Part shown: in pieces, positions 17,849 to 28,831 of the stretch
Position numbering within the stretch: position 1 is the first letter of the stretch
Layout: the number at the start of each line of letters is the position of its first letter
NCBI RefSeq assembly: GCF_009937995.1
Contig: NZ_AP021881.1
Span: 186,001-250,000, forward strand
DNA length: 64,000 bases
DNA from: Sulfuriferula nivalis
GTDB lineage: Bacteria; Pseudomonadota; Gammaproteobacteria; Burkholderiales; Sulfuriferulaceae
Reading direction: 5' to 3'
The notes under the pieces: model-generated
Databases searched by the model: none
Told to the model about the DNA's origin: nothing
The model's input: only the letters and a program-made list of their open reading frames with translations
Position numbers and translations under genes: made by a program

Positions 17849-18115
17849 ATGTCACAAGTGAAATTGCGAGAAAAAGGTCAGGTGACCATTCCAGCAGAAT
17901 TGCTGCAAGAATGGAGCAGAAAAAACCATGTTTCAACTAATGACACAATAGAAGCAACATTGGCAAACGGTGTTTTGATGCTTATCCCCAAAAAAAGACA
18001 TGTTGCTAAGCGTGACATTATGTCATTTGCAGGCACAGGCAAAGGGCTTTGGGGTAGCAGTGTTGAAGAAGTCGATGCTACGCTTAAAAAAATCCATAAC
18101 TCATGGACAAGATAA
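17849..18115 (+). CDS. AbrB/SpoVT-type antitoxin, partner toxin apparently lost
   Basis: The 88-residue protein starts VKLREKGQVTIPAELL, the swapped-hairpin AbrB DNA-binding domain, and ends with an acidic/basic helix (VEEVDATLKKIHNSW) like the toxin-binding tails of VapB antitoxins. GAGGGG before the ATG serves as ribosome binding site. The frame overlaps by 13 bases a 17-codon ORF that looks like the first helix of a PIN toxin. No intact toxin gene follows before the convergent HipB-like gene. Confidence 0.8.
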   Translation: MSQVKLREKGQVTIPAELLQEWSRKNHVSTNDTIEATLANGVLMLIPKKRHVAKRDIMSFAGTGKGLWGSSVEEVDATLKKIHNSWTR

Positions 18116-18156
18116 GTGCTGCGCTGTCACGCATACAAGGGCGACGTGTTTTATAA
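18103..18156 (+). pseudogene. Possible remnant of a PIN toxin start
   Basis: The 17-codon frame MDKISAALSRIQGRRVL overlaps the end of the AbrB-type antitoxin gene, where the toxin gene should begin. Toxins paired with this antitoxin type often have a short helix before the catalytic FDTNV segment. Here the frame stops right after RRVL. In the +1 frame, VFYNVHTY follows, which might be a degenerate version of that segment. The assignment rests on position and a short resemblance only. Confidence 0.35.
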
Positions 18157-18254
18157 CGTCCATACTTACTCGCAGCATAACACTCACCATAATCGCTCAA
18201 AGTTTACCACCCGTTCTTCACCGCAGTGACGAACCCATACGTTACTTGCAAAAT

Positions 18255-18545
18255 TTAGGTTTTCTTTTTGACTTTCTTTACAAAGCCAACCTCGAGGCCA
18301 AAAATATCGCCTATTTTGTTGAGGGTTTCAACATTAACAGACCCGTTTCCGGTTTCTATTTTCCGTAACGTCGCAAGTGAAATCCCACGATGTTTGGCAA
18401 ACTCGGGTTGAGTCAAACGACTGATGCGGCGCATCGCTTTAGTTGCATCACGTATGTTAAATTGACCTTCCGTAAAGTTTTGGAAGAAATCATCCACTAA
18501 TTTTCTTTCGAATTCCCTGTCGCTGGGTTTTAGTCGTTTATCCAT
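18255..18545 (-). CDS. HipB-like XRE-family antitoxin
   Basis: About 96 residues if translation starts at ATG 18545, which overlaps the hipA stop by eight bases; an upstream ATG at 18572 is possible. A helix-turn-helix spans TQPEFAKHRGISLATLRKIETGNGSVN. The gene follows hipA, the reverse of the common hipB-hipA order. It likely binds HipA and the inverted repeat upstream of hipA to repress the operon. Confidence 0.8.
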   Translation of the reverse strand: MDKRLKPSDREFERKLVDDFFQNFTEGQFNIRDATKAMRRISRLTQPEFAKHRGISLATLRKIETGNGSVNVETLNKIGDIFGLEVGFVKKVKKKT

Positions 18546-19809
18546 TGTCGTAGCCTTGTTCAATGTTCTCACAAACCTGAATTATTGATCGCGCACATTG
18601 CTTAATAATATCCGCATCGACTTCGCACTCGGCCATCGTCAGCGGTAAATTTTCAATCACCTTAGTAAAAGATTTGATAGCAAGCATAACAGTATTTTTT
18701 TCTTCGTTTTTTAACGGCAATGCTTCAATTACATCGACAAAGTTATTGATGACCTTCCCACTTTTGTCGAGCCATCTACTGGCTCTAGCCATCATATCTC
18801 TATCCATGAACATCGGCGCGATGTCGAACACAGGGGTTAACTGTACTGTGCCGTTTGCTAATTGTTGAATAGCTGTGTTGCGAGCATGATTGTCTGTATT
18901 AAGGATAGCCAGGTTCAATAAATCACGTTTGATATACTCAATAACCTCATTCACAGGATCAGTCACAAAAGGCAAGAAGGCGCTGACCAGATCATAATGG
19001 TTGGGGCGAATACCAAACGAATGATGCCCAGCGAGCGACGCAAGGCTTTCCTGGTGCAATCGCGTTACCACCCCATTCTCTGTCGTCCGGTCAAACCTTG
19101 GCACAAACAGCATTCCATCTTTGTGAAAAGTCTCGCCGTGCGATCTCAACCCGCACGCACGGGCAACTTTCATGTATGCCGCTTCGTTCTTGAGAATCGC
19201 CAGATCCGTTTCATGCTTGCCCCGCGGCAATTTTAAGAGCCAGTGGGATGCGATATCAGATTCTTTTGCGTAAGCGTCGATGAACCACAAGTCTTCATGG
19301 TTTTTAACCAACATGAATTTTGCGGATGCGCCTTGTAGGCCCGTTGTTCCCGCCCCTAGCATGCCATGCCTAGATAAGTTTTCTATGAAATCATCTTTGC
19401 GGCCCACAATCTCATTCAGCGTGAAACCGCGTTGCAAAGAACTGTCATTCTCTTCAACATTATTTGCGTATGTCACAGCAGTATCGAGCCGAAGTCGACC
19501 GACAGGATTGAAAGCCCCATGCTGTATAAGTGGCAGGATCAGATCATCTGAATCGATCAGCCCTAGCTGTTGTATTAGAAACCGACGACCATTGCCCTGG
19601 GGCACCATATCCAGCAAAAATGAAGGGCATACGCCCATGGGCTGTCGCGTTTCCAGCGATACAGGGAGTGTTAACGATACGGGCTGACAAACATCCCCGA
19701 AAACGTACTCAGGCAAGTATTCGAATGTGCAACGATCGCGCCCGCCCGATTCAATCAGAGCGGCTTCGTGCCATATACCATCAACGTAAATTTCAATTGT
19801 GCTTTTCAT
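18538..19809 (-). CDS. hipA: HipA-family kinase toxin
   Basis: The protein has 423 residues with the start at ATG 19809; an earlier in-frame start at 19845 would lie inside the promoter and operator. It has the HipA N-terminal subdomain (SLPVSLETRQPMG-like region), KLPRGKHETDLAILKNEA with the ATP-site region, and NTDNHARNTA with catalytic D and N, followed by PVFDIAPMF (DFG-like). HipA toxins phosphorylate aminoacyl-tRNA synthetases or related targets and slow growth. All expected kinase motifs are present, so the protein is probably active. Confidence 0.86.
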   Translation of the reverse strand: MKSTIEIYVDGIWHEAALIESGGRDRCTFEYLPEYVFGDVCQPVSLTLPVSLETRQPMGVCPSFLLDMVPQGNGRRFLIQQLGLIDSDDLILPLIQHGAFNPVGRLRLDTAVTYANNVEENDSSLQRGFTLNEIVGRKDDFIENLSRHGMLGAGTTGLQGASAKFMLVKNHEDLWFIDAYAKESDIASHWLLKLPRGKHETDLAILKNEAAYMKVARACGLRSHGETFHKDGMLFVPRFDRTTENGVVTRLHQESLASLAGHHSFGIRPNHYDLVSAFLPFVTDPVNEVIEYIKRDLLNLAILNTDNHARNTAIQQLANGTVQLTPVFDIAPMFMDRDMMARASRWLDKSGKVINNFVDVIEALPLKNEEKNTVMLAIKSFTKVIENLPLTMAECEVDADIIKQCARSIIQVCENIEQGYDNG

Positions 19810-20164: not shown

Positions 20165-20572
20165 TTATTCAGCCACTTTCAAAACATTAAAAACGTCTTG
20201 CTCGGTTAATCCGGACTTTCCATTGATCAGGTAAAGTCCTTCAGGCGATGAAAACAATTCCGGCGCATCATCCAATATTAGCCATTTTCCGTCGTAGCCA
20301 GCACTGTCTATCCATTCCTGCACTTCCGCACCGCGATCGCTGTATTCAATGCTTGGTGTGGCACCAATGAATCGATGCGCCAAATCCTCGCCACCGCCTA
20401 CCGTTGCAAAGTCAACTAGCTGATCAAACGGATAATCGTCGCGCCAGCTGGTCGTGAATACGACATTGGCTTCAATCGCACGAAGTATCTGCCAGAGATA
20501 TTCAACGCGACTGAACACAGCACCGCCACGATAGGGGTGCGTTACGCCATCAAAATCAAGGAAGATAATCAT
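20165..20572 (-). CDS. HAD-domain phosphatase-like protein (SAK type), copy 2
   Basis: The 135-residue protein starts MIIFLDFDGVTHPYRGG, the HAD nucleophile DxDG. It continues with VFTTSWRDDYPFDQL (second motif threonine) and KWLILDDAPELF (acidic DD motif). This pattern fits the short HAD group Pfam links to 'Swiss Army Knife' RNA repair proteins. ATG 20572 gives this start; upstream codons to 20587 are not needed. It is the last gene of the nuclease/phosphatase operon, separated from the exonuclease gene by 118 bases that contain a hairpin and a repeat. It may remove phosphates from nucleic acid ends (inference). Confidence 0.75.
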   Translation of the reverse strand: MIIFLDFDGVTHPYRGGAVFSRVEYLWQILRAIEANVVFTTSWRDDYPFDQLVDFATVGGGEDLAHRFIGATPSIEYSDRGAEVQEWIDSAGYDGKWLILDDAPELFSSPEGLYLINGKSGLTEQDVFNVLKVAE

Positions 20573-20618
20573 TGCCGCTACCCTCAAAAAGCAAAACTAT
20601 AATCAACTATAATTGGCT

Positions 20619-20711
20619 ATAGTTACCGTATTTTGCGAACCGCCTTAATTGTCCAATCACCGCTTGGACAATTGGCAATCTTGACCATAGTTACCGTATA
20701 TTGCCAACCGC
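20619..20711. repeat. 25-bp imperfect direct repeat flanking a perfect hairpin
   Basis: Copies at 20619-20643 and 20687-20711 match at 23 of 25 bases (both begin ATAGTTACCGTAT). The right copy is the 3' end and stop of the exonuclease gene, so the left copy is a duplicated gene end. Between them lies a perfect 10-bp inverted repeat, AATTGTCCAA (20647-20656) and TTGGACAATT (20664-20673), with a 7-base loop. No T-run follows it on either strand, so it is not a standard terminator. Confidence 0.75.
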
Positions 20712-21188
20712 AGCAAGCGATGCCAGCCGATTTGCTTTTGCATCATCCAATGCATGATGACGTCGCGAACCTCGTCTGAACTGCCTTTCAACCGCTTGGT
20801 TAAACTCTTTGCTCATCGCAAGGGATAAAGGCTTGCCGTCAAGATTCTGCGGCCAGTTATCACGGTCGTAAAATATCTCTTGGATCCACGGCCAATCCCA
20901 CGAGATTGAGTCCGTGACTAGCCTCACTGGCTGGCCAATGCCCTCTATCCACGCTTTAAGCTTTGTTACGAGCGTATCCATCGTCATTAATGACTCGCCA
21001 CCTTGCAGATGCGGGATAACCGCTTCCCGCACGAAATCATTACAGTCATCGATCTCGTAGGTGTCCGACAGCTCCGCATAAAACTCATGACCATCATCAC
21101 CGACCAGGCCGATCGAGATCAGGCGTGGATCAAGCCCAAGCTCTGTAAATTCAGTATCGAAGAAAACCAGCATCATATTTTTGCTCAT
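20691..21188 (-). CDS. Rv2179c-like DEDDh 3'-5' exoribonuclease, copy 2
   Basis: The 165-residue protein starts LVFFDTEFTELGLDPRLIS, which supplies the D-x-E metal ligands. It then has RLVTDSISWDWPWI with the third acid and RRHHALDDAKANR with the histidine and last aspartate, so the DEDDh active site is complete. It matches the Rv2179c-like exoribonuclease family, known for short 3'-overhang RNA trimming. It is clearly paralogous to the gene at 21813-22325. It overlaps the phosphoesterase gene by four bases. Confidence 0.85.
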   Translation of the reverse strand: MSKNMMLVFFDTEFTELGLDPRLISIGLVGDDGHEFYAELSDTYEIDDCNDFVREAVIPHLQGGESLMTMDTLVTKLKAWIEGIGQPVRLVTDSISWDWPWIQEIFYDRDNWPQNLDGKPLSLAMSKEFNQAVERQFRRGSRRHHALDDAKANRLASLAAVGNIR

Positions 21189-21805
21189 GTATTCACCATC
21201 ACAAATTCAACAATTTCCGCTTCACTGATGGGTTTCATATCCCACACATCAACACCAACATTCAGCATGCGCGGCTGTCCGCTGTCTTGACGGATTTTCC
21301 AATCTGAATGCACGTGACCATGCAGCAACAGGCTTTCTTTACCAATCTTCGGTCTGATATTCATATATCGCAGCTCGTAGTCCTGTAGCCCTTCGAGCGA
21401 TGGCGGCAAATAAGGAAAATGTGATAGTTGAACCAGGCCGATACCCTCTATTTCAATCTCATGCTGAAAATGCAGCTCGCTAAATCCAAGCTCAAGCGCA
21501 AGCACTTTGGCTTCAGCCATCTGGCCGTTGACGACGCGCTTAAAAAACGGATCATGATTACCTGTTACCAGGATTTTAGTGCCATTCAGAAACGGCAGGA
21601 TGTCGCGCAGGATTTGCGATTTAAACGCAAAGTCACCAATGCAATACACTGCGTCGTCAGCCGACACGGTCGCGTTCCAGCGATCGACAAGATGCGCATC
21701 CATCGCCTCAATCGATGCAAATTTATTGCCTGATTCGTCCCGTCTATCCTCGTATTTGAGGATATTGGCGTGACCGAAATGCTGATCACTCGTAAAAAAT
21801 TTCAT
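21185..21805 (-). CDS. Calcineurin-like metallophosphoesterase
   Basis: The 206-residue protein (start ATG 21805, seven bases after the upstream stop) contains every metallophosphoesterase block: FTSDQHFGHANI (D-x-H), YCIGDFAF (GD), LVTGNHDPFF (GNHD), LSHFPYLP and LLHGHVHSDW (GHxH). The length fits the small phage- and plasmid-associated phosphodiesterase group. It is the middle gene of the symmetric series HAD, exonuclease, phosphoesterase, exonuclease, HAD. The substrate could be a cyclic or terminal nucleotide phosphate, but this is inferred from neighbours. Confidence 0.88.
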   Translation of the reverse strand: MKFFTSDQHFGHANILKYEDRRDESGNKFASIEAMDAHLVDRWNATVSADDAVYCIGDFAFKSQILRDILPFLNGTKILVTGNHDPFFKRVVNGQMAEAKVLALELGFSELHFQHEIEIEGIGLVQLSHFPYLPPSLEGLQDYELRYMNIRPKIGKESLLLHGHVHSDWKIRQDSGQPRMLNVGVDVWDMKPISEAEIVEFVMVNT

Positions 21806-21812
21806 GATCTCA

Positions 21813-22325
21813 TCACAAGTTATCAAACAGCGGTTTAAATTGTAGCTTGAGCCGCTGGAATTCCAGCCAGCCTAGTCGGTTAGCTCGCGCATCGTCTAGC
21901 GCATGATGACGACGCAAGCCATTGTCAAACGCCTCTTCAACGATTGTGACTTGAATTTCCATCGGTAATTCAAGCAACATCGGACGGTGATCCACATTCG
22001 CCGGCCAGGTGCTTTTCAATGTAAAAATCTTGGTGAACCACGTCCAGTCATACTCAATAGAATCGCAACACATCGTCACAGGCTCATCGAAATCCTCAAG
22101 CCACGCGCCAAGCTGCATGACGAGATCATACGAATCCTTTTGCGCGTCACCGCCATCAAGCAATGGCAGCACGGTTTCACGCACGAACTCTGAGCAGTGC
22201 TTATACTCGTAAGTGTCAGTCAGCTCCGCATAGAACTCGCGACCGTCATCAGCCACTAGGCCAATGGATATAAGCCTTGCGCGTAGATGTAACGTAGTGA
22301 ATTCAGTGTCAAAGTGAACGATCAT
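21813..22325 (-). CDS. Rv2179c-like DEDDh 3'-5' exoribonuclease, copy 1
   Basis: The 170-residue paralogue of the gene at 20691-21188 has the same blocks: IVHFDTEFTTLHLRARLIS, MCCDSIEYDWTWF and RRHHALDDARANRLGWLEF, so all four acids and the histidine are present. It overlaps the HAD gene upstream by four bases. The two copies diverge over most of their length, pointing to an old duplication or to two recruited family members rather than a recent copy. Confidence 0.85.
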   Translation of the reverse strand: MIVHFDTEFTTLHLRARLISIGLVADDGREFYAELTDTYEYKHCSEFVRETVLPLLDGGDAQKDSYDLVMQLGAWLEDFDEPVTMCCDSIEYDWTWFTKIFTLKSTWPANVDHRPMLLELPMEIQVTIVEEAFDNGLRRHHALDDARANRLGWLEFQRLKLQFKPLFDNL

Positions 22326-22849
22326 TTCGGCTCCATAAAATGTTTAGCTGATTCCGCCTCATGCTGCTCTTTAAGCAACTTATTCAGCTGCTGCTTTGCA
22401 AAAAAATCATTCAACCCAAGCTTTCCCTTCGTTGCTACCAGCTGATCGAACTGAACATCAGGCCAATCAGCATGATCGTCGTCAATTGCGAACCAGTGAC
22501 CAATTTTGTGCCGCACAGCATGCGAGTAAATCTGTTGGTGCCGCGTCATCATTCCCCAGCGCATGTTGTTAGTGAATTCCTCATCTCGCTCTATCTTGCT
22601 GTGATACGTCGCACCAATCACTAATCGCGATAGCTCATCTGGTAGATAGCTCTTCGCACGATTAAAGCCAAGCTCTCGCACCCATGACGTTGACAGAACA
22701 ATCCTGGCGTCAGGGTATGGCACCAGCGCATCGATCAGGATGCCTGCATGCTCAAACAGCTTACCGCCGCCACGCAATTCAACGCCACGCTTGGTGCGGT
22801 AGGCTTCGTCTGCGTGCAGGACTCCGTCGTAATCAAGATAAATAATCAT
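22322..22849 (-). CDS. HAD-domain phosphatase-like protein (SAK type), copy 1
   Basis: The 175-residue protein starts MIIYLDYDGVLHADEAY with the HAD DxDG nucleophile. RIVLSTSWVRELGFNRA gives the second motif and HWFAIDDDHADWPDVQ the acidic metal motif. The C-terminal helix is longer than in copy 2. It follows three small unknown genes and overlaps the exonuclease gene by four bases. The family link to RNA-repair HAD proteins suggests end-phosphate removal; not proven here. Confidence 0.78.
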   Translation of the reverse strand: MIIYLDYDGVLHADEAYRTKRGVELRGGGKLFEHAGILIDALVPYPDARIVLSTSWVRELGFNRAKSYLPDELSRLVIGATYHSKIERDEEFTNNMRWGMMTRHQQIYSHAVRHKIGHWFAIDDDHADWPDVQFDQLVATKGKLGLNDFFAKQQLNKLLKEQHEAESAKHFMEPK

Positions 22850-22859
22850 TTGTCCTCAC

Positions 22860-23219
22860 TCATTCCGTGGATTGCGTTACCTGCGGTTCTGCTTCTCTAA
22901 CGACGACCGTGAAATCTTTTTTCGATGAGTCCAGAGAAAACACCTCGACAATATCGACTTTATGGCGATACGCACCGATGATCACAATTAACTGCCATCT
23001 TGAGCGTCTGGACGACCAGCCGTCGATCCACGTTATTGCGTCAATATCTCGATCCTTAAGCGTTCGCAATGCGAACAGAAGCAAGAGATGCGTGTCCAGA
23101 TGATCCACAGTGATTTCTATCGTGCGAGCTTTATCATCAACCACACAGTCGAATACAACATCAGGGACTGGTGAGCCAAAGTGCTTCAAGTACACTTTAA
23201 ATTCGTTTTCGGCAGTCAT
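22860..23219 (-). CDS. Uncharacterised protein in the nuclease operon
   Basis: About 119 residues from ATG 23219, which lies two bases after the upstream stop; the frame extends to 23252, but that would overlap the previous gene. It is predicted to be mixed alpha/beta (IEITVDHLDTHLLLLFALRT, WQLIVIIGAYRHK) without membrane segments or signal peptide. No family recognised. It is ten bases before the first HAD gene, so certainly in the same transcription unit. Confidence 0.65.
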   Translation of the reverse strand: MTAENEFKVYLKHFGSPVPDVVFDCVVDDKARTIEITVDHLDTHLLLLFALRTLKDRDIDAITWIDGWSSRRSRWQLIVIIGAYRHKVDIVEVFSLDSSKKDFTVVVREAEPQVTQSTE

Positions 23220-23220
23220 A

Positions 23221-23607
23221 TCAATCCTTAAAATTGCGAAGCAATATATCACCGCAGTAGTACCCGCGTCGGCTCATGGCTAGCGGCGTTGTTTCAATCA
23301 TCAGCTCTCGCGAGCGTTTGCCACCCGTATACACCGGTTCTGTAAGAAATCGCAACCTACTGAAACACCATGCTGGTGCCTGCCTGGATGCATTGTCAGC
23401 AATCAACTCGGCGAATCCGCCGAGCACTGCATCAGTCGTTGCGTCACCCGTCAGCTTCGGCTCATCTGTGACCATGGCCAGCGCAACGTCATCGTCAGTA
23501 ACCTTGCTTAATTCATCGATAAACTCTTTCATCGCCATCGAGATGCTGACACCGGACATGATCATGTCTGTCACTTCTTTTAATGTTTTTGGACGAGAAT
23601 AGCTCAA
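23221..23607 (-). CDS. Uncharacterised protein in the nuclease operon
   Basis: 128 residues with a helical N-terminal half (EVTDMIMSGVSISMAMKEFI) and a C-terminal half rich in R, G and Y (RLRFLTEPVYTGGKRSREL, then RRGYYCGDILLRN). The conserved-looking Arg/Tyr segment could bind nucleotide or nucleic acid, but I cannot name a family. It overlaps the preceding gene by four bases. Confidence 0.62.
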   Translation of the reverse strand: MSYSRPKTLKEVTDMIMSGVSISMAMKEFIDELSKVTDDDVALAMVTDEPKLTGDATTDAVLGGFAELIADNASRQAPAWCFSRLRFLTEPVYTGGKRSRELMIETTPLAMSRRGYYCGDILLRNFKD

Positions 23608-23951
23608 CAGTCACCACCACTCATCTCGCGCTCATATTCATAATCATTCTCGCTGTACGGCGGAAACTGTTTATTGAGCAAGTTTTGCAAAATCTGCTCA
23701 ACGTTAGATTCTGTGACGAAGGCATGCATAAACGACTCAACGATAAGCTCCTCAGTCGGCCGCTCAAGTGCACATCGGTGACGACGCATGAGCTCAATCG
23801 CACGAATCGCTGCCTTGATGGCATCAGCTTCTGGACAGTCGTGATCCTCTGCAAGAAGCCCATTGAGCACGTCCCTTTTATCGTTCTCAGCAACGTTCGC
23901 CATCTCACGTACAAGCTCACGAATGTTTTTGTCAATATCGCAATTTATCAT
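23604..23951 (-). CDS. Uncharacterised acidic protein in the nuclease operon
   Basis: About 115 residues from ATG 23951, preceded by a strong GGAGG ribosome binding site at the right spacing, which decides this start over 23978. It is almost wholly helical and acidic (IRELVREMANVAENDKRDVL, SNVEQILQNLLN) and ends EREMSGGDC. No known family. It overlaps the next gene by four bases. It follows the AAA+ gene after a 249-base gap. Confidence 0.62.
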   Translation of the reverse strand: MINCDIDKNIRELVREMANVAENDKRDVLNGLLAEDHDCPEADAIKAAIRAIELMRRHRCALERPTEELIVESFMHAFVTESNVEQILQNLLNKQFPPYSENDYEYEREMSGGDC

Positions 23952-24200
23952 TTCAAATTCCTCCAGGTTATGCGTCAAAAAATCCCTCAGCAGATCATGT
24001 TCATTGCAGCTAAAGAGCTCGACTCATCGACAACGGCATACTCTCAATCACCAGCTCTCTGTATTAAAAAATTAGTTGGTAATTCGATCCATGGCGGGGG
24101 GGGTGTGGCCATGAGTAAAGCTAATCAATCAGCAATATTCGCCTTGATACAGCAATGGCAACTTTCCCCGTCAATGGTGACTAAAGGCGAAGCATCGACC
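23952..24200. other. Spacer between AAA+ gene and the rest of the operon
   Basis: The only sizeable gap inside the operon. It holds a run of eight G (24096-24103) and a short plus-strand frame from ATG 24111 to TAG 24222 (starting MSKANQSAIFALIQQWQLSP) that runs into the 3' end of the AAA+ gene on the other strand. I see no terminator or clear promoter. It may be the site of a past insertion or deletion. Confidence 0.35.
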
Positions 24201-25754
24201 TCAATTGAGGTATTCCGGCCTTAGCGCTACATCTTCAGCCATGATCTGCTGCATCATTCTAATCAGCGCACGAACACTACGTTTCTTTGCAAATGCCTGC
24301 CGCAGTACCATCAGCACTTCGTTGTCCATGATGGGTAGCATCTCCAGACGTGCATCATGCTTTTTAGCAATATCATTACGCAAGCTTAGCAATATCGCAT
24401 CAAAGTCCTTGGCTTGCGGTGGTGCGACGTGGATAACGCGCATACGGCTGAGCAGCACGGATGGCATATGATGAATCGAGTTCGCCGTAGCTATCCAGTT
24501 GATATGTGAATAGTCGACCTCGCCCAGCAGAAACTCATCAAAGATATTCTGGGCGGTCTGCGGTTCCAGCATGCCAAGCAAGTTATCCCATACGTTGCCG
24601 TTATGTCGGTTCTCTCCGACTTTATCAATCTCATCCAGCCCGATGATGGGATTTGGGCATTTTTGCTGCAGCATCATATCAACCAGTATGCCCGGACGGG
24701 ATGTGCCCCAGCCACGACCAGCACCTTTGAGCATCATGTTGTCAGCCATGCCGTTTAGTGACAGCACCCGAGATGGCGTGGCTAACACTTCGCCTAGCCG
24801 TTTAATAAAACGGCTTTTGCCGATACCTGCACTGCCGACCAGGCAGACAGGATCAAAATGCAGTGTCGATTGCCCCATGTTCTTGCGGAAGGTAGCGCTA
24901 AGCTTAATATGATCGATGACTTCACCCATCCACGGAAACTCATACTTGAGTATCTGAGCCCATTGGGTATTTTCAGGGCAGGCTGCAAGTGGTATCGGCA
25001 ACCGCAATTGTGAGTAGCGTGCCAGCGCATCTTTCTCACGTTTATCTTCTGATTTGGTAATAGAGCGGATGACACGAATATGCCCTGCAGGGACAGGCTC
25101 AGCGGGATTGTCATCAAACGCTTTAATTGCCATACGCTGAAGCTTATCCAGTTGATCATCTTTCAGATTCACCAATTCAAGGGGTGACGTGTTCTGTAGC
25201 AACAGGCGTGCAATTTTGGGATTGTTGTCTCGAATTGCCAATTCCGCTGCAACTGCCTTCGCTAATATCTCTATCGGCCGCTCACGTGTAATGCCGCGAT
25301 GGGTGAGCCATTCTTCGCACAATGCTGCAGCTTCCTCAGCACGAGTAAAGTCATTCTTTAATAACGCTAGGTATATCTGATGTAATTTGCCTTGCTCCGA
25401 GCCCATTTCGGCAGCGATGGCCCACCATGCATCCACGATATAGTCATCAAACTCGCCAGCTTGTTTACCCAGCGCCTGGGCAACACGCTCTACCAATTGC
25501 ATTTGATGGCGGGCGTCCATGAGGAATAGTGACAGCAAGCTAAATGCCAGCTTGTTGTCTTTCTTAATGGCTTTGAATTTATCTGCCACCTCGTAGCGAT
25601 TCAGCACGGCACCCTTAAACAGGTCGGTGAATACTTTTCTGGCGGTGACTGGCAGCTTAGGGAGTAGCTGACGAATTGGCTTGTGTATGTGATCTGGTAC
25701 GTTTGCTAATGCTAGGTTATGTAAATCTCCATCGTTGCTCGAATTTAAATTCAT
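24201..25754 (-). CDS. Lon-like AAA+ ATPase without protease domain
   Basis: 517 residues from ATG 25754, with GGAG eight bases upstream. The N-terminal 290 residues are helical and unfamiliar. The AAA+ module follows: Walker A VGSAGIGKS near residue 305, pore/box region MMLKGAGRGWGTSRPG, Walker B PIIGLDEIDKV, then LLGMLEPQTAQNIFDEF and NWIATANSIHHMP (sensor 1), and a sensor-2 region with KKRSVRALIRMM. The order and wording resemble the Lon ATPase module, but there is no Ser-Lys protease domain. First gene of the operon; it may remodel a complex formed by the enzymes downstream (inference). Confidence 0.82.
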   Translation of the reverse strand: MNLNSSNDGDLHNLALANVPDHIHKPIRQLLPKLPVTARKVFTDLFKGAVLNRYEVADKFKAIKKDNKLAFSLLSLFLMDARHQMQLVERVAQALGKQAGEFDDYIVDAWWAIAAEMGSEQGKLHQIYLALLKNDFTRAEEAAALCEEWLTHRGITRERPIEILAKAVAAELAIRDNNPKIARLLLQNTSPLELVNLKDDQLDKLQRMAIKAFDDNPAEPVPAGHIRVIRSITKSEDKREKDALARYSQLRLPIPLAACPENTQWAQILKYEFPWMGEVIDHIKLSATFRKNMGQSTLHFDPVCLVGSAGIGKSRFIKRLGEVLATPSRVLSLNGMADNMMLKGAGRGWGTSRPGILVDMMLQQKCPNPIIGLDEIDKVGENRHNGNVWDNLLGMLEPQTAQNIFDEFLLGEVDYSHINWIATANSIHHMPSVLLSRMRVIHVAPPQAKDFDAILLSLRNDIAKKHDARLEMLPIMDNEVLMVLRQAFAKKRSVRALIRMMQQIMAEDVALRPEYLN

Positions 25755-25777: not shown

Positions 25778-25806
25778 ATAATACCATAGCGTAGGCATTT
25801 TGTCAA
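25778..25806 (-). promoter_or_regulatory. Strong sigma-70 promoter of the nuclease operon
   Basis: On the minus strand TTGACA (25806-25801) and TATTAT (25783-25778) are separated by exactly 17 bases. The predicted start point near 25771 leaves a leader of about 17 bases with GGAG before the AAA+ ATG. The plus-strand gene at 25844 diverges from the same short region, so its product could act here. Confidence 0.72.
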
Positions 25807-25843: not shown

Positions 25844-26815
25844 ATGAGTTCAGATTTAGTCCATACCGATACCGGCACCATCAAAATCCTTGATCGAGCG
25901 GGGAATTTTTTAATCCTTTTGCCACACATCGATCTACAGGGTGTGAAGAAAATGCCACTGCCCGTACCTGTGGCACTCGCCGATAAGTTATCTGCAGGGA
26001 CGAGTGGCAGCACAACTCATGCATTCGCCATACTGGCACGCTGGGTGCTTGAAGACTTGATAAAGCCAGACATGCAATTAATTGCACGGTCCGAAGGGGC
26101 TGCCTTTGCTTTCGAACTGAAGTCGCGCGAAGAGAATAGTGTTGGAGATAGCAGTATGCCCGTGCAGGTATATGGGCAACTGGATCCCAAAGGGACACGA
26201 CCTATACTGGCAAGCTTGCCGCCAGCACTGCATGAGAAGCTGCGCGAGATGGGTTCCGGTTCGATGCGTCAGACACTGCTGGCGTTGCTTCAGTATGGTT
26301 TGGAGCAGTTGGATAAAATCGATCGAACACTAACGCTGATAAAACCCGAAACAGAGTCGGTTGAGGATAAAGCCGTAATACTGCTGGTAGATGGTAGTGG
26401 TTCGTGTGAGCACTGGATCAACCAGGCCGTACCTGTCATGCAATGGTTGGGGTATCGAGTTGAAGTCGCCCAGAAACAAGACTTACAGCACGCACCCAAA
26501 GCCAACTGTGTCGGAATGTTCGTCGTGAGTAGGCCACGTGAGGTGGTGCCGGATTGGTTGCTAGATCAGACAGTGACGCCAGTATTTGGTTATGAGATTG
26601 AACTTGATGCGGCTGGTGCTTTCTCTTCTCCTGACGGTGTGCTATCCAGGCATAAACGTCCTAAATTCTTGAACGAAGCACGTAGTGCCTATTGCGAGCA
26701 ATGCGATCGTGGGGTGAGTGTGATTGAGGAAAGTGAATGCAGGCGCGATGCTAATAAAATGTATCATCGAGTTTATTGCCGAGCATGTAAAAGTTTGTTT
26801 GGTTTAGATCGCTAA
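25844..26815 (+). CDS. Uncharacterised protein with duplicated helical segment and zinc-ribbon-like tail
   Basis: The 323-residue protein contains two similar segments: VPVALADKLSAGTSGSTTHA followed by FAILARWVLEDL (about residues 41-72), and LPPALHEKLREMGSGSMRQT followed by LLALLQYGLEQL (about residues 127-158). Their strand-helix-turn-helix look suggests two ribbon-helix-helix-like units. The middle (AVILLVDGSGSCEHWINQAV) has a Rossmann-like start, and the C-terminus has YCEQCDRG and VYCRACKSLF, a four-cysteine zinc ribbon. It diverges from the nuclease operon, 89 bases away. A regulator or DNA-binding partner is possible. Confidence 0.62.
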   Translation: MSSDLVHTDTGTIKILDRAGNFLILLPHIDLQGVKKMPLPVPVALADKLSAGTSGSTTHAFAILARWVLEDLIKPDMQLIARSEGAAFAFELKSREENSVGDSSMPVQVYGQLDPKGTRPILASLPPALHEKLREMGSGSMRQTLLALLQYGLEQLDKIDRTLTLIKPETESVEDKAVILLVDGSGSCEHWINQAVPVMQWLGYRVEVAQKQDLQHAPKANCVGMFVVSRPREVVPDWLLDQTVTPVFGYEIELDAAGAFSSPDGVLSRHKRPKFLNEARSAYCEQCDRGVSVIEESECRRDANKMYHRVYCRACKSLFGLDR

Positions 26816-27069: not shown

Positions 27070-27165
27070 ATGATTGAGCAAGTTGATATATTAGAAAAGT
27101 CGCCAATATTCAAAAAAATATCCGTATTGCGTGTTAACGAAAACTTGACATCCTCCCCCACCTAA
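27070..27165 (+). pseudogene. Short frame cut by the IS200/IS605 element
   Basis: ATG 27070 opens MIEQVDILEKSPIFKKI, which reads like the first helix of cyclic-nucleotide-binding (Crp-type) proteins, and runs into the end of the IS element, where it stops. It looks like a gene start interrupted by the insertion, but the fragment is too short for a firm family assignment. Confidence 0.28.
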
Positions 27166-27180
27166 ATGCGGGGGATTCCT
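27143..27180 (-). ncRNA. Possible omega/reRNA 3' region at the tnpB-side element end
   Basis: The last codons and stop of tnpB (27162) overlap the hairpin end of the element. In IS200/IS605 elements the guide RNA of TnpB is produced from exactly this place and ends with a guide from the flanking host DNA, here to the left of 27143. The hairpin is seen; the RNA is inferred from the family. Confidence 0.4.
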
Positions 27181-28394
27181 ACGGGTTCACGCGATGATTT
27201 GCGGATGCCTTCAGTGGGTTCGTGCTTCATCGTGCGGTCTTGTTGCACCGTCACTCCACGCGCTAACACGGCATGTCCTGCCGCTAATATATTGATTGCC
27301 CCAACCAAGTCAGCATTGTCGCTATAGCCACATTCCACACATTCAAACTTTGCTTGTGTGAGACGGTTTTCTTTGGCTACATGCTTACAACACGGACATG
27401 TACGACTGGTGTTGCGCGGATTGACCGCGATTACCTCGCCACCTTTCCATGCCTGTTTGTATTCAAGCTGTCGCCTGAATTCAAACCAGCCTTGATCCAG
27501 GATGGAACGATTCAAGCCTGACTTGGCTTTGACGTTGCTTCCTTCGGTTTCCATCGTTCCTTTGGCGCTTTTGCTCATATTGCTGACCTGCAAATCTTCT
27601 ATCACTATCATGGCGTGGTTTTGGCTGATGCGGGTAGTCGTCTTATGCAGGTTGTCTTTCCTGATATTCGCAATCGTGCTGTGGAGTTTGGTTATTTTGC
27701 CTTTCTGCTTTTTCCAGTTACTGCTGAATTTAACCTTACGCGCTAATGCGCGTTGATAACGCGCAAGCTTGGCTTGCTTTTGTTTGAAGCTGTTGATAGC
27801 TGTGAATACTTGTCCGTTGCTTAACGTAGCAAATCTGGCGATACCTACGTCAACACCCACCATGCTGGTAGATAGGTGTCTTGGCTGCTCTATCTCACGC
27901 TCAGTCTGGATGCTGGCGTACCACTTGCCGCATTTGAGTGATACGGTGATGTTCTTTGGGGTGCCAAGCATTGCTTGGCTATTGCGGTAACGTAGCCAAC
28001 CCAACTTGGGTAAAAAGATGCGATTGTTCTGTTGCTCAATTTTGAAGCCTTGTGGAAATTTGAAGCTGTCACTCATGCCTTTCTTTTTGTACTTGGGAAA
28101 CTCAGTGCGTTTAGCAAAGAAGTTCCTGAAGCTGGATTCCAGATTCTTTAGTGACTGCTGCAATGTTTGGCTGGGTGCGTCTTTGAGCCAAGTAAGTTCT
28201 GTTTTCCATTGAGGCAGTAAATTGGCTGTTTTGGTGTAGCTGAATTTGAAGGTATTGTCGGCTTGATATTGTGCATTTTGCCACGCTAGGGCTTTGTTAT
28301 ACACCACACGGCAACAACCCGCGTATTGACGCATGGCGCGTGATTGCTCACCGTTAGGCATGAGTTCAAACTTGTAGGCTTGCAAGCGTTTCAT
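27162..28394 (-). CDS. tnpB: TnpB RNA-guided nuclease
   Basis: The 410-residue protein has the OrfB N-terminal region (YKFELMPNGEQSRAMRQYAG), the RuvC-like catalytic residues in MVGVDVGIARFA (Asp), MIVIEDLQVSNM (Glu) and YSDNADLVGAINIL (Asp), and the four-cysteine zinc finger CPCCKHVA...CVECGYS between the last two. All appear intact, and the length is normal. TnpB proteins cut DNA guided by the RNA from the element end and help the element persist. It diverges from tnpA with a 20-base gap. Confidence 0.93.
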   Translation of the reverse strand: MKRLQAYKFELMPNGEQSRAMRQYAGCCRVVYNKALAWQNAQYQADNTFKFSYTKTANLLPQWKTELTWLKDAPSQTLQQSLKNLESSFRNFFAKRTEFPKYKKKGMSDSFKFPQGFKIEQQNNRIFLPKLGWLRYRNSQAMLGTPKNITVSLKCGKWYASIQTEREIEQPRHLSTSMVGVDVGIARFATLSNGQVFTAINSFKQKQAKLARYQRALARKVKFSSNWKKQKGKITKLHSTIANIRKDNLHKTTTRISQNHAMIVIEDLQVSNMSKSAKGTMETEGSNVKAKSGLNRSILDQGWFEFRRQLEYKQAWKGGEVIAVNPRNTSRTCPCCKHVAKENRLTQAKFECVECGYSDNADLVGAINILAAGHAVLARGVTVQQDRTMKHEPTEGIRKSSREPVGIPRI

Positions 28395-28414
28395 GGTTTT
28401 ATTATACTAGGTCT

Positions 28415-28831
28415 ATGGATCAAAACAATGACATTAGACATGGAAGACACTGCGTTTTTTTAATGCATGTACATTTGGTCTTTGTCACTAAATATAGACG
28501 AGAAGTGTTTACAAAAACTATTTTGGACGAATTGCGTCCGATATTTGCAGCAGTGTGCAAAGACTTTGAGGCGGAACTGGTGGAATTTGATGGTGAAGAT
28601 GATCATGTGCATTTACTAGTGAACTATCCGCCCAAGGTTTCAGTTTCCATCCTGGTCAACAGCCTTAAAGGCGTATCTAGCCGAATGATTCGGAAAAAGG
28701 ACTACCCAAGTATCCGAAAGAAGTTGTGGGGTGGTGCGTTATGGTCACCGAGTTATTTTGCTGGTAGTTGCGGCGGTGCGCCGATTGAGATTATTAGGCA
28801 ATATATTGAGCAACAACAAACACCGCATTGA
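28415..28831 (+). CDS. tnpA: TnpA, HUH/Y1 single-strand transposase
   Basis: The 138-residue protein has the HUH metal-binding motif in GEDDHVHLLVNYPP (near residue 64), the LVFVTKYRR N-terminal strand and SPSYFAGSCGG before the C-terminal helix. The catalytic tyrosine lies in IRQYIEQQ near residue 130. The protein is full length, so the element may still be mobile. It catalyses single-strand excision and insertion at a short specific target. Confidence 0.94.
   Translation: MDQNNDIRHGRHCVFLMHVHLVFVTKYRREVFTKTILDELRPIFAAVCKDFEAELVEFDGEDDHVHLLVNYPPKVSVSILVNSLKGVSSRMIRKKDYPSIRKKLWGGALWSPSYFAGSCGGAPIEIIRQYIEQQQTPH

Follow-up and report, generated by a model that had tools for sequence, protein, structure and literature searches.

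A role as RNA-end phosphatases of jumbo phages has been proposed for HAD phosphatases of the SAK type and for some calcineurin-like enzymes (PMC7824862, section 3.4.9); in section 3.4.8 of that paper, certain calcineurin-like phosphodiesterases are predicted to act against nucleotide signals. BrxL of the bacteriophage exclusion (BREX) systems is described (PMC12839542) as combining an MCM-family AAA domain with a Lon-protease or HKD end. Here we analyze a locus of Sulfuriferula nivalis in which related enzymes follow a Lon-type AAA+ gene. It occupies positions 20165–25754, minus strand, of a 64,000-nucleotide stretch of contig NZ_AP021881.1 (186,001 to 250,000 of the forward strand; assembly GCF_009937995.1), hereafter the window. 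In order of transcription it comprises an AAA+ ATPase (AAA), three small proteins (unkA, unkB and unkC), a HAD_SAK_2 phosphatase (HAD1), an Rv2179c-like DEDDh exonuclease (EXO1), a calcineurin-like phosphoesterase (MPE), a second exonuclease (EXO2) and a second phosphatase (HAD2). An earlier note, made from the letters of the window alone, had taken these genes for one operon and its enzymes for a functional set.

Linkage in other genomes

The combination of these enzymes is not a local accident. A census covered 399 genomes from the order of the host. It found EXO in 31 genomes, HAD in 51 and the non-Lon AAA family in 77 (87 matches); the profile used for the latter separated it from true Lon, with at least 258 bits versus at most 168 among the loci collected by then. 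An EXO or HAD gene was located within 10 kb of AAA at 8 of the 87 loci, where 0.25 would be expected, and EXO and HAD were within 10 kb of each other in 10 of the 12 genomes having both, where the expectation is 0.32 (one of the ten, G050, depends on a partial EXO). Both expectations assume random genome positions, the general crowding of mobile cargo being outside the model. Within the family of genome G130 (140 genomes, a sample partly overlapping the first), AAA was present in 13 genomes with 14 loci and EXO in 14 genomes, and 5 of the 14 AAA loci had EXO within 10 kb. EXO was also found in another genome of the genus of the window (G017). Among 28 named EXO loci, 14 carry a further array component encoded in the same direction.

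The claim that the enzymes belong together is supported by linkage and by arrays on a plasmid and in a metagenome-assembled genome (MAG). The earlier note had named co-occurrence in this locus alone as the outcome that would speak against it; combinations recur in Rhodoferax plasmid, Ferrigenium and Sideroxydans MAG loci. Not every search was productive. A first contig scan with AAA gave zero relatives, one of the five plasmid AAA neighborhoods first viewed (L015) had a same-strand phosphoesterase, none of three plasmid relatives of the Rhodoferax AAA had an enzyme, and one of eight plasmid neighborhoods around EXO, HAD or unkB (L109) had AAA. No common neighbor emerged from 37 enzyme-free AAA loci, where each cluster covered at most five loci.

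Architecture of the arrays

Twenty-one loci, including the window, hold AAA together with at least one enzyme. AAA is upstream of all enzymes and on the same strand in 19 of them, in agreement with the leading position given to it by the earlier note; the exceptions are L013, where it is on the opposite strand and 7 kb off, and L066, which has one HAD-like open reading frame (ORF) upstream. In 14 of the 21 an enzyme ORF begins within 100 nucleotides of the AAA end or overlaps it, as measured on stop-to-stop ORF edges and with L066 excluded for its upstream HAD. Because these loci were gathered partly for having enzymes, they describe layout and not frequency.

Behind the Lon-type AAA come HAD phosphatases of the SAK type, three kinds of calcineurin-like phosphoesterase (the profile groups MPE, MPEb and MPEc), a DSP-like cysteine phosphatase and none to several DEDDh exonucleases. 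The order is AAA-EXO-EXO-EXO-DSP-EXO-HAD-MPE-HAD-MPEb-MPEc-HAD in Candidatus Ferrigenium altingense (L190), the first EXO being a fragment, and AAA-MPE-EXO-EXO-EXO-HAD-HAD-MPEb-MPEc in a Sideroxydans MAG (L195); other arrays have one to six enzyme genes. The DSP-like protein scored 28.1 bits with DSPc, under the cut-off of 33.5, and keeps the Cys motif. A plasmid of Rhodoferax antarcticus carries AAA-HAD-EXO-metallophosphoesterase downstream of a relaxase gene. Two arrays, L221 and L222, are present in one single-contig genome (G461); the stretch before AAA is mostly common to the two, and their enzyme content differs. Neither gene order nor copy number is conserved between arrays.

Catalytic residues and relationships of the copies

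By alignment, the catalytic residues are intact in 32 of 37 full-length EXO, 35 of 39 HAD and 7 of 7 MPE members, fragments having been set aside (2 EXO, 3 HAD and 1 MPE), and the Cys motif is present in 8 of 8 DSP members. The EXO copies of the Sideroxydans MAG array have intact residues. These counts supersede those from simple motif patterns, which under-detect (EXO 26/39, HAD 36/42, MPE 2/9); the same patterns, which missed many enzymes, matched 14 of 20 MPEb and 6 of 8 MPEc.

Copies from one locus fall mostly in separate clades that recur in other arrays, as seen for the EXO of L190 and L195, in a quick tree whose support values are not shown. Exceptions are near-relative pairs within a locus (HAD in L222, EXO in L212), which are cases of in-place duplication outside the window. 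EXO1 and EXO2 of the window (51% identical) belong to one larger clade, each being closest to copies from other loci, and HAD1 falls in another clade than HAD2. The mirror-like paired order to which the earlier note had drawn attention is a feature of the window that none of the other 20 AAA loci shows, and duplication of a whole half as its origin was rejected for HAD, given the different clades of HAD1 and HAD2.

Protein families of the window array

The AAA protein (24201–25754, minus strand, as are all nine genes; 517 residues) matches PF00004 with E 9.4e-9 and covers only positions 356–558 of the 795 of the Lon model TIGR00763, that is, its AAA part. The Ser-Lys protease domain is absent, so the protein is not a Lon protease and its earlier description as protease-less and Lon-like stands. 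In an alignment of 13 sequences including that of the window, residues G307, G310, K313, R437 and R495 are invariant, and D374 and E375 are nearly so.

HAD1 (22322–22849) and HAD2 (20165–20572) are members of HAD_SAK_2 (PF18143; E 4e-27 and 3.4e-19, 95.7 and 70 bits, cut-off 27.5), with the catalytic Asp pair present in the aligned residues. By sequence family they are candidate end-healing phosphatases. The predicted model of HAD1 has a predicted local distance difference test score of 87.7; MDP-1 and Fcp1 are nearest among the solved folds listed, tied with others, and polynucleotide kinase-phosphatase entries are absent among the fold matches listed, which excludes nothing. The SAK name reportedly goes back to work of Burroughs and Aravind in 2016.

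EXO1 (21813–22325) and EXO2 (20691–21188) match the Rv2179c-like family of 3'-5' exonucleases (PF16473; E 1.4e-7 and 5.7e-8, 31.8 and 33.1 bits, cut-off 27) and keep the DEDDh residues that go with membership. The solved structures nearest to EXO include Rv2179c, labelled a 3'-5' exoribonuclease. Neither protein belongs to the RNase AS equivalog NF033638, with scores of 40.1 and 41.6 bits at a cut-off of 200. MPE (21185–21805) matches phosphoesterase family phrog_547 with E 1.3e-44 and aq_1665 with E 2.3e-10; its match to Pfam Metallophos_2 (E 5.7e-5, 23.6 bits) is under the cut-off of 27, and we count it as a calcineurin-like phosphoesterase on its phrog_547 score and its retained metal-binding residues. 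The profile matches agree with all five enzyme families named in the earlier note, and each of the five has catalytic residues that are recognizable at sequence level, as it had stated.

For unkA (23604–23951, 115 residues), unkB (23221–23607, 128 residues) and unkC (22860–23219, 119 residues), Pfam, PADLOC, NCBIfam and PHROGs gave neither a family over its cut-off nor a match with E below 0.05. No relatives of unkA and unkC were found in 260 collected loci or in the plasmid collection, and both are probably local cargo. unkB has distant relatives on plasmids of Hydrogenophilus, Azospirillum, Mycobacterium and others, and the two such neighborhoods viewed had none of the array enzymes. The nine genes had been put forward as one conserved unit; this was rejected because relatives of unkA and unkC are lacking in the loci and plasmids searched and the enzymes are absent from those two unkB neighborhoods, and unkA, unkB and unkC are not part of the recurrent set. 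A comparison of the nine window proteins with PADLOC-DB 2.0.0 assigned them to neither BREX nor other systems, the best match being to a generic DEDDh model at E 0.0018.

Gene layout and setting of the window array

All nine minus-strand ORFs are open and intact, as had been reported. Likely start codons were picked by eye from ribosome-binding sites: 25754 for AAA, 23951 for unkA, 23607 (TTG) for unkB, 23219 for unkC, 22849 for HAD1, 22325 for EXO1, 21805 for MPE, 21188 for EXO2 and 20572 for HAD2. With these starts the tight packing that had been claimed is true of six of the eight junctions (a 4-base overlap or a gap of 1–10 bases) and fails at two, where 249 bp follow the AAA stop and 118 bp separate EXO2 from HAD2. 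Two copies, 87% alike, of a 31-bp repeat (20613–20643 and 20681–20711, spanning 20613–20711) are in and beside the second of these gaps.

Upstream of AAA there is a promoter-like site, TTGACA-17-TATTAT with an extended −10 (TG), at 25778–25806 of the minus strand. With 11 of 12 consensus positions it is the best-scoring promoter site of the region, and to that extent the near-consensus promoter of the earlier note is upheld. The scan by itself is no proof, because its five sites in the region are not above the number in shuffled sequence (mean 8.9).

The host genome has 3.4 Mb in 3 contigs. Flanks of the window read as polysaccharide genes (gene names outside 16–29 kb of the window are our reading of the sequences), and toxin-antitoxin-like genes and an IS200/IS605 element are near the array, in line with the setting given in the earlier note. 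Beside the array, 17849–19806 holds a HipA-like gene with a helix-turn-helix partner and a MazE-like antitoxin gene. The IS200/IS605 element (27162–28831) carries a gene of the OrfB/TnpB type and, on the opposite strand, a Y1 transposase. A divergent gene on the plus strand (25844–26812) encodes a 323-residue protein with a weak double-zinc-ribbon match, and it shares one intergenic region with the AAA promoter. Neither a relaxase nor an integrase was recognized in the window, and it has no tRNA gene.

Neighbors of the arrays and viral relatives

Relaxases, integrases and restriction enzymes recur among the 132 scanned array neighbors of 170 (25 families listed), and the largest unlabelled neighbor cluster is a relaxase-like group from 7 loci. 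Arrays of Betaproteobacteria adjoin relaxase or restriction genes in several cases. A small protein that we read as zinc-ribbon-like is found near arrays in six loci (L018:5002-5463, L203:10462-10923, L213:10474-11154 and three more); two scanned members had no Pfam match. In L235 a caspase-domain (Peptidase_C14) protein with a Sel1 repeat (L235:7263-8663) is encoded between AAA and HAD-MPEc-MPEb.

A tRNA gene directly precedes AAA in 2 of 25 array loci scanned, in both cases on the same strand and with an enlarged variable region: tRNA-Ile-TAT of 88 nucleotides (L213:7228-7315) and tRNA-Arg-TCT of 92 nucleotides (L246:8171-8262). Upstream of AAA on the same strand there are also a tRNA-Ser about 0.6 kb away in L248 and a transfer-messenger RNA about 0.9 kb away in L250. 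The two adjacent tRNAs could be a bait, a sensor, a spare part or a mere integration site; the last is a plain explanation, because 42 further loci have no tRNA so near AAA and the genes in L248 and L250 are more distant.

None of the 80 best viral EXO loci, out of 492 relatives, had a second array component, versus 30 of 70 cellular loci. This contrast is inflated, since EXO, HAD or AAA had served as the starting point for collecting the cellular loci, whose median length is also greater (17.0 kb versus 11.9 kb). A phage origin of the array was rejected on the lack of a second component in those best 80 viral loci.

Discussion

The reading that we favor, if tentatively, is that the array is a modular and often mobile cassette of Betaproteobacteria, made of AAA and changeable enzymes, that would trim or clear the ends of RNA or oligonucleotides. 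Its observed part consists of the array itself, the position of AAA, catalytic residues that are mostly kept, and copies drawn from recurring lineages. To judge from their families, the enzymes would act on RNA or DNA ends. The AAA ring could open or remodel protein-bound RNA, or hand the enzymes to RNA; the phosphatases would strip terminal phosphates left by toxin or defense RNases, the exonucleases would trim or clear the freed 3' ends, and different enzyme lineages might serve different end chemistries. The likely benefit would be that the element or its host survives RNA-cleaving toxins or host defense, with the fragments being cleared and not re-joined, and in this way the array may enable mobile DNA to reverse or withstand damage to RNA. 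A bolder version of this idea, which we consider unlikely but worth stating, is that of a new class of mobile-element conflict system, in which a combinatorial set of an AAA+ ring, exchangeable phosphoesterases of three folds and DEDDh exonucleases would remove what toxin or immune RNases leave behind, with each enzyme lineage adapted to its own kind of RNA or oligonucleotide end.

Several observations weigh against the favored reading. The bond between AAA and the enzymes is loose, because most AAA loci (79 of 87) have no EXO or HAD inside 10 kb and the enzyme-linked AAA genes are spread across the AAA tree (14 changes, versus a shuffle mean of 16.9 and minimum of 10); AAA alone is therefore a weak marker of an array. 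This AAA family is present at four of the 28 named EXO loci. The phosphoesterase family has a wide distribution, with matches in 54 of 150 genomes, 10 of 14 control genomes and 1349 phage records. In the window itself, 249 bp and three unrelated genes stand between AAA and the enzymes. Loss of catalytic residues is seen in some array members, for example the plasmid-borne EXO of Rhodoferax antarcticus as aligned, and others seem broken, such as an EXO fragment (L190:7321-7536) and an MPEb in two ORFs (L239:7183-7986); the latter two suggest decay of arrays alongside their growth. The fold of HAD1 is closest to protein phosphatases, and the DSP and calcineurin folds are able to act on proteins. 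Finally, neither RtcB (PF01139) nor an RNA_ligase (PF09414) was found in the one host genome, where Rnl1-type ligases were not searched. The earlier note had allowed for RNA repair, and in its ligation form this is weakened by the absence of both ligases and is not supported.

Four other explanations were considered, each with a lower probability. The enzymes might instead destroy oligonucleotide alarm signals, such as cyclic oligoadenylates or the nucleotides of cyclic oligonucleotide-based antiphage signaling systems (CBASS), as an anti-defense module of plasmids and integrative elements. RNase AS, which EXO weakly matches, is labelled polyadenylate-specific in NCBIfam, the jumbo-phage prediction in section 3.4.8 of PMC7824862 concerns calcineurin-like enzymes, and relaxase genes stand beside some arrays; but the RNase AS match is only 40–42 bits against a cut-off of 200, and the words phosphoesterase, exonuclease and phosphatase are absent from the main text of a paper on leading-region anti-defense genes (PMC11541004) by word search. 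We regard this as improbable. Somewhat more doubtful is a defense system in which AAA+ would detect infection, and nucleotide pools or the nucleic acid of the phage would be the target of the nucleases and phosphatases. Genes for restriction-modification are repeatedly found close to arrays, toxin-antitoxin-like genes surround that of the window and a caspase-domain gene sits between AAA and the enzymes in one; against this, none of the nine array proteins of the window did better than E 0.0018 in PADLOC, and the neighbors include relaxases and not restriction enzymes alone. Many different phosphatases would also be unusual effectors.

Variable order and copy number, EXO and HAD genes that also occur singly, AAA genes that are mostly solitary and the scatter of linked AAA genes on the tree would all fit a gathering of unrelated accessory phosphatases and exonucleases in mobile elements without joint function. 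Linkage far over chance, AAA in first place in 19 of 21 loci, the same clades recurring in different arrays and the close approach of enzyme ORFs to AAA in 14 of 21 speak against such loose cargo, to which we give a slightly smaller chance than to the defense system. A module in which the HAD, calcineurin-like and DSP-like phosphatases dephosphorylate proteins would agree with the nearness of the HAD1 model to MDP-1 and Fcp1 among the folds listed and with the weak match of the L190 DSP-like protein to protein phosphatases. It gives no role to the DEDDh exonucleases, however, and the SAK-HAD family name comes from RNA repair; we consider it very improbable.

If the arrays do process RNA or oligonucleotide ends as in the favored reading, mobile elements would have a way to survive RNA-cleaving immunity without an RNA ligase, and the arrays would be a source of phosphatases and exonucleases with varied end preferences. 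The AAA-first layout, which recurs in Betaproteobacteria from the environment and on plasmids, puts the question within reach of tests on small operons that can be cloned.

Comparison with known systems

Searches of PADLOC, NCBIfam, PHROGs and the literature, the last only in part directed at arrays, turned up no array of this kind, so the statement that no described system has this composition holds within that coverage, which did not extend to the key 2016 RNA-repair paper of Burroughs and Aravind. RNase AS/Rv2179c shares the Pfam family and the DEDDh residues with EXO1 and EXO2, but the scores of these are far under the equivalog cut-off and EXO is encoded in arrays. Lon protease has a like AAA+ core, whereas the array AAA has no protease domain and differs in its N-terminal part. 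BREX with BrxL also places an AAA+ protein in a conflict setting; the window proteins match no BREX model, and the AAA domain of BrxL is of the MCM family. Phage phosphoesterase (phrog_547) and exonuclease (phrog_2259) genes are of the same enzyme families as those of the array but, for the best 80 of 492 EXO loci, lack a second array component. RNA repair with a ligase, as in the Rtc, Pnkp/Hen1 and T4 Pnkp/Rnl systems, is set apart by the ligase: RtcB and PF09414 were not found in the host, and no RNA ligase, kinase or nucleotidyltransferase was recognized in 10 unlabelled array-region proteins and the 25 listed of 117 neighbor families. The RNA-repair sets of phages and bacteria with SAK-type HAD (PMC7824862) resemble the arrays in SAK-HAD and calcineurin-like phosphatases proposed for RNA ends and in their conflict setting, and the arrays differ from them by DEDDh exonucleases and a Lon-type AAA leader. 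We therefore group the array with mobile conflict and RNA-end cassettes; with a smaller probability it may form a separate class.

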